Below, piece after piece: positions 53,388 through 54,558 of a DNA stretch of 64,000 nt. The notes under the pieces were generated by a model, which saw nothing but the letters and a program-made list of their open reading frames with translations, ran no database searches and had not been told where the DNA came from. Both the position numbers and the translations under genes were made by a program. The stretch lies in the NCBI RefSeq assembly GCF_003432065.1, contig NZ_QWDE01000003.1:62001-126000 (forward strand). The letters run 5' to 3'. Origin of the DNA: Mucilaginibacter terrenus (GTDB lineage: Bacteria > Bacteroidota > Bacteroidia > Sphingobacteriales > Sphingobacteriaceae). The number at the start of each line of letters is the position of its first letter. Position 1 is the first letter of the stretch.

Positions 53388-53417
53388 TTGATTCATCAGA
53401 AACATTGCTTATAATTG
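53388..53417 (+). promoter_or_regulatory. Promoter of the leader-peptide element
   Basis: TTG (53388-53390), a 19-bp spacer and TATAATTG (53410-53417, one mismatch to TAnnTTTG) form a good Bacteroidetes promoter. Transcription would start at about 53424, on the GTG of the leader peptide. Confidence 0.7.
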
Positions 53418-53421
53418 CATC

Positions 53422-53478
53422 GTGAAAACAACAACAATACAAAGCTTTATACCGCACCCGAAGTATCGGAGGGGATAG
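53422..53478 (+). CDS. Putative leader peptide VKTTTIQSFIPHPKYRRG
   Basis: An 18-codon frame starts with GTG at 53422 and stops at TAG 53478. It starts almost exactly at the predicted transcription start. Three successive ACA (Thr) codons follow the first Lys and two CCG (Pro) codons come later. A strong Shine-Dalgarno-like GGAGG sits at its end, 8 bp before ATG TAT TGA (53481-53489), a minimal frame. An intrinsic terminator lies 31 bp after its stop. This layout resembles attenuator leaders but no regulated gene can be named. It may instead be a short regulatory RNA. Confidence 0.45.
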   Translation: MKTTTIQSFIPHPKYRRG

Positions 53479-53508
53479 CTATGTATTGAGTAGTATAATA
53501 AATACATT

Positions 53509-53541
53509 AAAATCCTCTTAGGCTTCTTAAGGGGATTTTTT
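53509..53541 (+). terminator. Terminator/attenuator after the leader peptide
   Basis: 12-bp stem (AAAATCCTCTTA / TAAGGGGATTTT, one G-U pair), a 7-nt loop and a T-run at 53536-53541. Its 5' arm (ATCCTCT, 53512-53518) can pair instead with AGGGGAT at 53470-53476 at the end of the leader frame, so an antiterminator fold is possible. Confidence 0.75.
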
Positions 53542-53558
53542 GTTTACAGAGCATTTTC

Positions 53559-53632
53559 AGGGTAGTATATCAATTGGTCAGATTACCACATTTGGGATGT
53601 GGAGGCTCCCGGTTCGAGTCCGGGCTACCCTA
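53559..53632 (+). tRNA. tRNA-Pro (anticodon TGG), aberrant
   Basis: Cloverleaf read by eye: acceptor AGGGTAG/CTACCCT (7 bp), D stem of 3 bp, anticodon stem CCACA/TGTGG with loop TTTGGGA (anticodon TGG, G37), T stem CCCGG/CCGGG with loop TTCGAGT, discriminator A. Normal bacterial tRNA-Pro has C1-G72; here it is A1-U72. No CCA is encoded. Confidence 0.85.
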
Positions 53633-53643
53633 CTGATTATAAA

Positions 53644-53716
53644 GGACATATAGCTTGATGATGAGAGCAGCACCCTTGTACGGTGTCGGTTAAAGGTTCG
53701 AGTCCTTTTATTTCCA
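53644..53716 (+). tRNA. tRNA-Thr (anticodon TGT), aberrant
   Basis: Cloverleaf: acceptor GGACATA/TATTTCC with a C-U mismatch at the fourth pair, D stem GCTT/GAGC, anticodon stem GCACC/GGTGT with loop CTTGTAC (anticodon TGT), T stem AAAGG/CCTTT with TTCGAGT loop, discriminator A. It is 11 bp after the tRNA-Pro. The anticodon reads ACA, the codon repeated three times in the leader peptide. Confidence 0.8.
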
Positions 53717-53965
53717 CACTTTGTTTTTCTTGGTCAATGATGTCAATTTTTTAAATACAGCATGATCAATGATACTCATGCCGGGAAACGGTACATCAGT
53801 AAGTTTAAGCTCTGCTGACTAATCTTTCCTGAGTTCTTAACCCGTAATTTTATGGGCCGGGGAAACTATTCATATAATAAAGAAAATTCTTTATACACCA
53901 ACCACGTTGTTCTTCTTATAACATCCTCAAATTGCAACACTATTTCAACTTCAATTCTTGCCATT

Positions 53966-53983
53966 GTTGGTGTTGTCACCAAC
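53966..53983. repeat. Palindromic element GTTGGTG-N4-CACCAAC, copy 1
   Basis: 7-bp perfect stem with loop TTGT. It is preceded by GCCATT, as is copy 4. Confidence 0.8.
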
Positions 53984-54074
53984 GATTTTGTTATGGTATT
54001 GACACCCCCTGCATCAATGCCGGATAACATATCTTGTAATGCTACCAGATTACTGCCTTTCTACCTACCGCCGG

Positions 54075-54098
54075 TTTGTTGGTGACAACACCAACAAA
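54075..54098. repeat. Palindromic element, copy 2
   Basis: TTTGTTGGTG-ACAA-CACCAACAAA, a 10-bp perfect stem. It is in the opposite orientation to copy 1 and is preceded by CGCCGG, shared in near-identical form with copy 3. Confidence 0.8.
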
Positions 54099-54106
54099 GC
54101 ACTAAC

Positions 54107-54211
54107 ATACCTTTCTGGAAGACGATAAAACTCTGCTGTGAAATATTCGAAAAGAACCATATCCCGCCGGATTTTGATGTGGTAAACAAAGAATATGCCT
54201 TTAAGAATTAG
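54107..54211 (+). pseudogene. C-terminal gene remnant between palindromes
   Basis: A 35-codon frame ending at TAG 54211 reads as protein ('IPFWKTIKLCCEIFEKNHIP', then 'PDFDVVNKEYAFKN') but has no start; an in-frame TGA lies inside copy 2 just upstream. It looks like the C-terminal piece of a helical protein whose 5' part has been lost. The family is unknown. Confidence 0.5.
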
Positions 54212-54235
54212 AGAGAGCTTATTACCTGTCGCTGG

Positions 54236-54253
54236 TTTGTTGGTGACAACAAC
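54236..54253. repeat. Palindromic element, copy 3 (degenerate)
   Basis: TTTGTTGGTGACAACAAC: the left arm and loop match copy 2, and so does the preceding CGCTGG (CGCCGG), but the right arm is damaged so no full stem can form. Confidence 0.7.
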
Positions 54254-54261
54254 GGCAGGAA

Positions 54262-54558
54262 TCAGCTGTTAAACTTTTTTTCAAAAGCCGACAAACTCCC
54301 ACATTCTTTTAAATTTTTACCCTTCTTATCAATTATATAAATATAATCTTCATCGTGCCCAAATTCATTCTCAGAAAGGAATTTCTTAACTGAAGATGTT
54401 AAACGCTGCAAATTTTCTTTAGATGTATCACCGCCTTCAGACCTAACAACCTTTTCTATTTGGCCCCAAATGTCATTTACTCTATTAGGGAAAGAAAAGG
54501 TATGTAAGATAGCATCTACATAATGGCTTATCTCTTCTGTTATATCGTATTTAGACAT
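54262..54558 (-). CDS. Orphan 98-residue hypothetical protein between palindromes
   Basis: The protein is helical and charged with no signal or membrane segment: 'MSKYDITEEISHYVDAILHTFSFPNRVNDIWGQIEKVVRSEGGDT', then 'LQRLTSSVKKFLSENEFGHDEDYIYIIDKKGKN'. It has a plausible ATG start and coherent composition. It lies between palindromic copies 3 and 4. I do not recognise the family; small single genes of this kind are often immunity or phage-related, but nothing in the sequence shows that. Confidence 0.6.
   Translation of the reverse strand: MSKYDITEEISHYVDAILHTFSFPNRVNDIWGQIEKVVRSEGGDTSKENLQRLTSSVKKFLSENEFGHDEDYIYIIDKKGKNLKECGSLSAFEKKFNS

Follow-up and report, generated by a model that had tools for sequence, protein, structure and literature searches.

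We describe here a family of small genetic units in Mucilaginibacter and a few related genera in which a short leader peptide frame and an intrinsic terminator stand in front of a cassette of tRNA genes. One unit lies in a 64,000-nucleotide (nt) stretch of the Mucilaginibacter terrenus genome (NCBI RefSeq assembly GCF_003432065.1, contig NZ_QWDE01000003.1, positions 62,001 to 126,000, forward strand), hereafter the window. Textbooks describe attenuation by leader peptides for amino-acid genes. As read from sequence, the unit is likely a ribosome-mediated transcription attenuator that controls an auxiliary tRNA operon and is switched on when the codons of the cassette cannot be read, and the spare tRNAs would probably be produced only during a shortage of those tRNAs. 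The computations found the unit to be conserved, the leader and terminator to co-vary, the leader codons to match the cassette tRNAs, the tRNAs to be extra copies, and the units to cluster with genes for Ro60 and RtcB. From these patterns, we infer that translation drives the switch and that a shortage of the cassette tRNAs is the signal. The family makes a strong comparative case for a self-sensing tRNA operon, of which the window appears to hold a partly degraded member.

Occurrence and conservation

When 41 genomes were searched at the DNA level, the greater part of the 361-bp stretch carrying the unit (at least bases 31 to 329) was found in M. terrenus itself and, at 74 to 82% identity, in 8 of 40 relatives, which argues against a chance arrangement. 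A terminator-pattern search of named genomes returned 53 loci, 37 of which have a leader plus tRNA (in Mucilaginibacter, Pedobacter, Hufsiella, and other Bacteroidetes), and a model built from 40 leaders matches 66 of 149 Mucilaginibacter genomes. When tRNA-Ile(UAU) alone was the query, the 149 genomes yielded 63 places in 62 genomes, 61 of them within 300 nt of a leader; the remaining two, in genomes G083 (locus L183) and G095 (L184), are truncated cassette remnants without a leader (G and L numbers are our own labels).

Outside the genus, the unit occurs in a few Pedobacter and Hufsiella. Across 399 genomes of the family, strong model matches outside the genus came from five genomes (G188, G344, G394, G428, and G452); the 12 weak ones were all inspected, and no tRNA was found at any, one (in G430) being a relic. 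At that locus (L277), a leader is fused to the 3′ end of a tRNA-Ile with no terminator. Among 395 genomes of the class, the only strong match was in M. terrenus, and the 14 weak matches elsewhere had no ARAGORN tRNA within 3 kb. In two Pedobacter loci (L022 and L067), a pair of complete leader-terminator-tRNA units lies in tandem, and each unit has a set of tRNAs to itself. A phage or plasmid origin was considered and rejected after viral-contig, plasmid, and phage searches: no exact terminator pattern was present in the viral contigs, and a relative's unit (L116) had no plasmid match and only tRNA-sized phage matches, covering 16 to 18% of the query.

The counts that follow refer to 74 distinct units, 68 from the genus and 6 others. 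Dropped from them were L182 (no leader and no tRNA), repeat copies, and the 16 of 53 pattern loci without a leader or tRNA; L289 and L290 were inspected and stand outside the 74. The tRNAs of L023, which is cut by its contig piece, were taken from the identical unit L147, and in tandem arrays each unit was taken to end at the following leader. An initial annotation of the window, made from its sequence alone, had named conservation of the leader in relatives as a check on its proposal. Leader frame and start codon are conserved across the 74 units (ATG in 73, with GTG in the window's unit only). Conservation of the terminator partly follows from how loci were selected, since 37 of the 53 pattern loci had matched the terminator pattern and were retained; in the units that came from the model or tRNA search, and in Pedobacter units with other terminators, it is independent of that selection.

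Leader codons and cassette tRNAs

The codons of each leader are, by sequence, those read by the tRNAs of its own cassette. A typical leader reads M K T T T I(ATA) Q C F I(ATA) P Q L I Y Q R G. With each tRNA kind counted once per unit, a matching codon was present in the leader in 227 of 229 unit-by-tRNA cases (Table 1), a match reached in none of 5,000 permutations of the tRNA sets among leaders. One Thr, one Asn, and two unnamed tRNAs were left out of these counts; a third tRNA that ARAGORN did not name, with GCA in an 8-nt anticodon loop, was counted as Cys. The exceptions are L165, which has tRNA-Pro without a Pro codon, and L145 (on the same contig as L024), whose tRNA-Ile is one base short before the 3′ acceptor strand.

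Table 1. Leader codons and cassette tRNAs in the 74 units (Fisher p values ignore shared ancestry).
Kind	Codon and tRNA	Codon only	tRNA only	Neither	Fisher p
Cys	37	4	0	33	1e-16
Gln	49	19	0	6	1e-3
Phe	11	18	0	45	8e-6
Pro	66	6	1	1	0.18
Ile (ATA)	64	9	1	0	1

Among sensor Ile codons in 58 collapsed units, ATA occurs 110 times and ATT or ATC 4 times, against 29.9 ATA and 42.0 ATT plus ATC per thousand codons in 33 long frames of the window. ATA is itself the commonest Ile codon of these window genes, which is unusual in bacteria. The 13 leaders with IQIQ all lack tRNA-Cys. Among the divergent units, L178 carries Pro(CGG) alone; its sensor has three CCG codons and no Gln codon, and the unit also has two unmatched Cys codons. 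In L179, where Gln(CUG) is the only tRNA, there are four Gln codons and Pro codons are absent. An Ile(GAU) cassette with an ATT codon was seen in a single case (L026/L133). On an rpoB tree of 57 genomes (the gene was sought in 60 and none was obtained from 3; G100, G134, and the five divergent units were not placed), seven independent differences in tRNA-Cys were found, with the codon changing the same way in five, the opposite way in none, and unchanged in two (p=0.0625). The rpoB tree was used because the tree of the locus itself, built from 62 units beginning with Pro and then Ile or Thr, was too weakly supported.

The initial annotation had linked three ACA codons in the window's leader to a tRNA-Thr(TGT) behind it. 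Sensing of Thr through ACA was rejected, as 24 of 74 leaders have three or more ACA codons and only 1 of 74 cassettes has a tRNA-Thr. The window's "tRNA-Thr" is 91% identical to the tRNA-Ile(UAU) query and is, on this likeness, a tRNA-Ile(UAU) whose anticodon has changed to UGU; its match to ACA is therefore a coincidence. The sensing codons would instead be ATA, CAA/CAG, TGC/TGT, TTT/TTC, and CCN.

The terminator/antiterminator switch

Three alternative pairings are available to the transcript. Arm 1 (AATACA) can pair with arm 2 (TGTATT); arm 2 (TTTATC..AGAGGAT) can pair with arm 3 and its loop (ATCCTCT..GATAAA); and arm 3 can pair with arm 4. As modeled, these fit a classical attenuator. The pairing of leaders with their own terminators is −978 kcal/mol, compared with −896 ± 12 kcal/mol when terminators are permuted, and after collapse to 40 units it is −534 compared with −466 ± 11; in both cases none of 20,000 permutations was as good. 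The terminator is predicted in 72 of 74 units without a ribosome and in all 74 with a ribosome at the stop codon, and when a ribosome sits at codon 6 before arm 4 has been transcribed, the antiterminator is predicted in 72 of 74. Terminator and antiterminator are thus predicted to be mutually exclusive in 72/74 units, and leader and terminator co-vary in the swap test. Arm 2 pairs better than its shuffled versions (mean, −13.2 versus −7.3). None of 200 shuffled versions of the window's leader RNA folds as well as the RNA itself (z, −4.0), and both sides of its antiterminator have changed and still pair (AAGU with GCUU).

Transcription would start at or near the leader start codon. A ribosome that reads the leader to its stop would cover arm 2, and formation of the terminator would then prevent synthesis of the tRNAs. 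If a charged tRNA is scarce, the ribosome would stall at an ATA, CAA/CAG, TGC/TGT, TTT/TTC, or CCN codon and cover arm 1; arm 2 would then pair with arm 3 as the antiterminator, and polymerase would run on into the tRNA genes for the stalled codons. The proposal of the initial annotation that leader translation controls read-through into the tRNAs is, in this outline, very probably right, and the leader codons fit the cassette tRNAs, although it chose the wrong codon and tRNA.

Cassette tRNAs

In relatives, the usual cassette order is Pro(UGG), Ile(UAU), and then any of Phe, Cys, and Gln. Elsewhere in the M. terrenus genome there are further genes for the Pro(UGG), Thr(UGU), Cys, Gln, and Phe tRNAs, so the window's two tRNAs are additional to the housekeeping set; canonical tRNA-Cys and tRNA-Phe were likewise matched in 16 of 16 cassette genomes searched, M. 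terrenus included (the canonical Phe match of G150 ends at a contig end). Other copies in the genome had been raised beforehand as a possible objection; they are present, and they mark the cassette as auxiliary and do not refute the proposal.

The cassette tRNA-Pro begins with A1 in 67 of 67 copies. A1-U72, initially taken as aberrant, is therefore the rule and was rejected as a sign of decay. All seven acceptor pairs are kept in 64/67 copies and all five anticodon pairs in 64/67. The anticodon stem occurs in six fully paired forms (CCACA, 34 copies; CCTGC, 13; CTCCG, 11; CGTGC, 3; CCGCA, 2; CTCGG, 1), with a mismatch in 3 further copies, whereas canonical tRNA-Pro(UGG) has the CCACA stem in 12 of 12 copies read from 7 relatives. 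The cassette anticodon stems thus vary with compensation.

The window's second tRNA has a D loop without G18-G19 and, read from the sequence, a C-U mismatch at pair 4-69. In this cassette, decoding of Ile(AUA) and the Cys codon have been lost, and the promoter, leader, switch, and tRNA-Pro have been kept.

Two further observations concern tRNAs. All 11 copies of the cassette tRNA-Phe (for example, in L116, L118, and L126) have the noncanonical T loop ATCGTTA and are possibly orthogonal or nuclease-evading tRNAs. At G000:C7:113283 (L198), a weak tRNA match of 35 bits, where ARAGORN finds no tRNA, is perhaps a remnant.

RNA-repair genes near the cassettes

A Ro60/TROVE gene lies within 5 kb of 21 of the 68 cassettes of the genus, and Ro60 or RtcB lies within 25 kb of at least 35, where chance would give about 0.8% per gene. 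In 20 chosen 20-kb loci, the commonest protein families were Ro60 (7), RtcB (7), and a WYL regulator (5). By genome, Ro60 is present in 38/66 with a cassette versus 14/83 without one, and RtcB in 59/66 versus 34/83, with ancestry and genome size uncorrected. No neighbor gene is fixed for all cassettes; 75 of 144 flanking proteins have no partner. The M. terrenus genome has no Ro60 match, and its RtcB gene is on a different contig from the cassette. Seven Ro60 loci contained no Y RNA at the Rfam gathering score (only 24 tRNAs and two Flavo-1 RNAs), with Rfam coverage of the Y RNAs of this phylum unchecked.

Relation to known systems

The unit resembles the his, trp, leu, and pheST attenuators in having a short leader frame with control codons, the 1:2, 2:3, and 3:4 pairings, and an intrinsic terminator. 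It differs from them in that the controlled genes are tRNA genes, that the leader mixes codons for several amino acids, which vary with the set of tRNAs in the cassette, and that the start codon lies 4 nt behind the −7 box. To our knowledge, earlier ribosome-mediated attenuators control enzymes or synthetases. The T-box riboswitch also reads tRNA charging and chooses between terminator and antiterminator, as proposed for the unit, but does so without leader translation; no Rfam T-box match was found at the unit.

The device itself exists in the group, as the leader model weakly matches a his leader, MNIRTHHHHLHTGFQARWN, before HisG (assigned by Pfam) in another family of the class (L293). L293 and L300, in other families of the class, are the two of the 14 weak class matches that precede HisG. 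Both have a histidine-rich leader behind a promoter-like box, and at L300 HisG is assigned by likeness of the protein start only. Likeness to the Rfam His_leader is below threshold (23.5 of 49 bits). At L280 (G250:C8:4100-5900, minus strand), a leader with the Cys-rich end MKTRNQHKAVFNNNVCMCVQLMCYAHC and a terminator precede a gene for a tetrapyrrole methylase (TP_methylase in Pfam). This locus, which belongs to another genus of the family, may be a cysteine/siroheme attenuator. Our literature search, whose coverage did not extend to most subscription-journal papers, found no tRNA operon under a leader peptide. Leader-peptide attenuation is thus a known device that the phylum possesses, and the novelty would lie in its control of tRNA genes.

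Two systems are close in content. The Anabaena trn operon consists, like the cassette, of spare tRNA genes beside the housekeeping ones, is normally silent, is induced by translational stress, and shares the repressor TrcR with rtcB (PMC10272220). It has 26 tRNAs, a megaplasmid location, and a protein repressor, and attenuation is unmentioned in the paper's text (PMC10272220). The Salmonella operon rsr-yrlBA-rtcBA joins Ro60-type and RtcB genes, as found near many cassettes, and is induced by broken tRNAs (PMC7790460). It is controlled by RtcR and has Y RNAs, and "tRNA gene" and "leader peptide" are unmentioned in the text (PMC7790460).

We lean slightly toward tRNA damage as the natural trigger, by analogy, because spare tRNA genes would help against cut tRNAs and not against missing amino acids and because Ro60 and RtcB are nearby, as partly paralleled in Salmonella (PMC7790460) and Anabaena (PMC10272220). 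More speculatively, and short of a view that we would favor, the leader may be a list of tRNAs under attack, each codon reporting the loss of one tRNA. The replacements, with diverged anticodon arms, would evade a tRNA-cutting toxin or phage-triggered nuclease, RtcB and Ro60 would repair or discard the pieces, and each change of attacker would bring a joint revision of the tRNA set and the leader codons.

Alternative explanations

Several results weigh against an attenuator tuned to its own cassette. The units share ancestry, and the tree-aware Cys test reaches only p=0.0625; on the rpoB tree, neither Phe (about 2 changes the same way, 0 opposite, and 2 unchanged) nor Gln (about 3, 1, and 4) is significant, and the locus tree leaves only 2 supported Cys pairs. 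Pro and Ile codons cannot show a correlation because they are in nearly every leader. Phe codons occur without tRNA-Phe in 18 leaders and Gln codons without tRNA-Gln in 19, and ATA is retained in the five divergent Pro/Gln units, none of which has an Ile tRNA. An exact anticodon-codon match for Gln was rejected as a general rule, since in 6 of 10 Gln(CUG) cassettes CAA is the sole Gln codon of the sensor; CAG makes up 13/27 of sensor Gln codons in Gln(CUG) units versus 16/99 in Gln(UUG) units. Where the codons coincide with the 1:2 hairpin, their order could be maintained by structure. In only 19 of 74 units does arm 2 pair better than every one of its 100 shuffled versions, the antiterminator is 88% paired in 40 leaders with no more two-sided changes than in slid versions, and the window's antiterminator is no better than that formed with other units' terminators (−12.8 versus a median of −14.1). 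Finally, 33 of 68 cassettes, the window's included, have no Ro60 or RtcB within 25 kb among the matches listed, some of them being near contig ends.

A sensor of starvation for Ile, Gln, Cys, Phe, or Pro, with the extra tRNAs a by-product or a change of decoding under starvation, would draw on the same device found before HisG in the class, and to a ribosome an uncharged and a missing tRNA are alike. This is nevertheless unlikely: the output is tRNA, which is no cure for lack of an amino acid, the sensor uses ATA and not all Ile codons (110 to 4), and the recurrent neighbors are RNA-repair genes and not biosynthetic ones. Bacterial Y RNAs carry a tRNA-like domain. This, the Ro60 genes within 5 kb of 21/68 cassettes, and the unusual T loop of the cassette tRNA-Phe would suit tRNA-shaped decoys or Y-RNA-like Ro60 ligands that do not decode, but the leader codons fit the amino acids of the cassette anticodons, anticodon stems vary with compensation, and the Ro60 loci gave no Rfam Y RNA (with the limit on coverage given above), so that we regard such a role as quite improbable.

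The initial annotation also offered a plainer reading, a short RNA beside decaying tRNA copies. A constitutive terminator or small RNA of this kind, with no regulation, would account for the damaged second tRNA of the window and the leaderless relics in G083 and G095. For the family, it fails because the tRNA stems are kept by compensatory changes; with a leader conserved in 74 distinct units, a co-varying antiterminator, a codon-tRNA match, and tRNA-Pro acceptor and anticodon pairs each complete in 64/67 copies, it is very improbable. For the window's copy, which has lost the Cys codon, G18-G19, and the ATG start, it holds in part. That this unit is a relic, whose leader and switch survive while its products, tRNA-Pro and a broken ex-Ile tRNA, have lost their importance, has about an even chance and is compatible with an attenuator in the family at large. 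The GTG start unique among the 74, the lost Cys codon, the absence of G18-G19, the C4-U69 mismatch, and a genome with no Ro60 match and RtcB on another contig favor it; the promoter, terminator, tRNA-Pro, ATA/CAA/CCG codons, and a changed antiterminator that still pairs have all been kept and speak against it.

The unit in the window

All parts of the unit noted in the initial annotation are present on the forward strand of the window (Table 2), among them the GTG-initiated 18-codon leader frame, the intrinsic terminator with its complementarity to the end of that frame, and the two foldable tRNAs. The promoter, described there as good, stands as a conserved TA-box, mostly TATCATTG, TATAATTG, or TATACTTG, in 69 of 73 units; scored as an Escherichia coli-type sigma-70 promoter, the region is at chance level (4 found versus 3.6 expected). 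The −33 TTG was assigned by the Bacteroidota promoter consensus. Behind the cassette, a TTGGTGTTGTCACCAAC-like inverted repeat was seen by eye in whole or partial copies at about 53963, 54076, and 54236 (within 53963-54270).

Table 2. Features of the leader-tRNA unit, in positions of the 64-kb window.
Feature	Position	Strand	Evidence
TTG of −33 element, Bacteroidota-type promoter	53388..53390	+	Sequence; TTG in corresponding zone of 41/73 units
−7 element TATAATTG	53410..53417	+	TA-box 4 nt before start codon in 69/73 units
Leader peptide frame VKTTTIQSFIPHPKYRRG-stop, 18 codons, GTG start, near-leaderless	53422..53478	+	Start 4 nt behind −7 box
Sensor codons 4-13: ACA ACA ATA CAA AGC TTT ATA CCG CAC CCG	53431..53460	+	
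Arm 1 (CAATACA) of 1:2 hairpin	53435..53441	+	Fold; pair counts in relatives
Small hairpin CCGA-agta-TCGG	53458..53469	+	Second pair (53:63) U-A in 27/40 and C-G in 13/40 leaders
Antiterminator strand AGGGGAT, part of arm 2	53470..53476	+	Can pair with ATCCTCT (53512-53518)
Arm 2 (TGTATTG), pairs with arm 1	53482..53488	+	Fold
Intrinsic terminator (arms 3 and 4) with T run	53509..53541 (also given as 53509-53539)	+	Prediction; fold
Auxiliary tRNA-Pro(UGG), A1 subtype, intact	53559..53633	+	Rfam tRNA, 61.4 bits
Ex-tRNA-Ile(UAU), anticodon now UGU (called tRNA-Thr(TGT))	53644..53717	+	Rfam tRNA, 58.9 bits

Implications

If the proposed attenuator is correct, its output is the very tRNAs that it senses, a closed loop that would set tRNA supply codon by codon and a new way to control that supply. 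It would give a use to the extra tRNA genes found beside RNA-repair genes. The leader would be a natural record of which tRNAs become scarce or come under attack in these bacteria, and a ready reporter for the loss of single tRNAs would be at hand.
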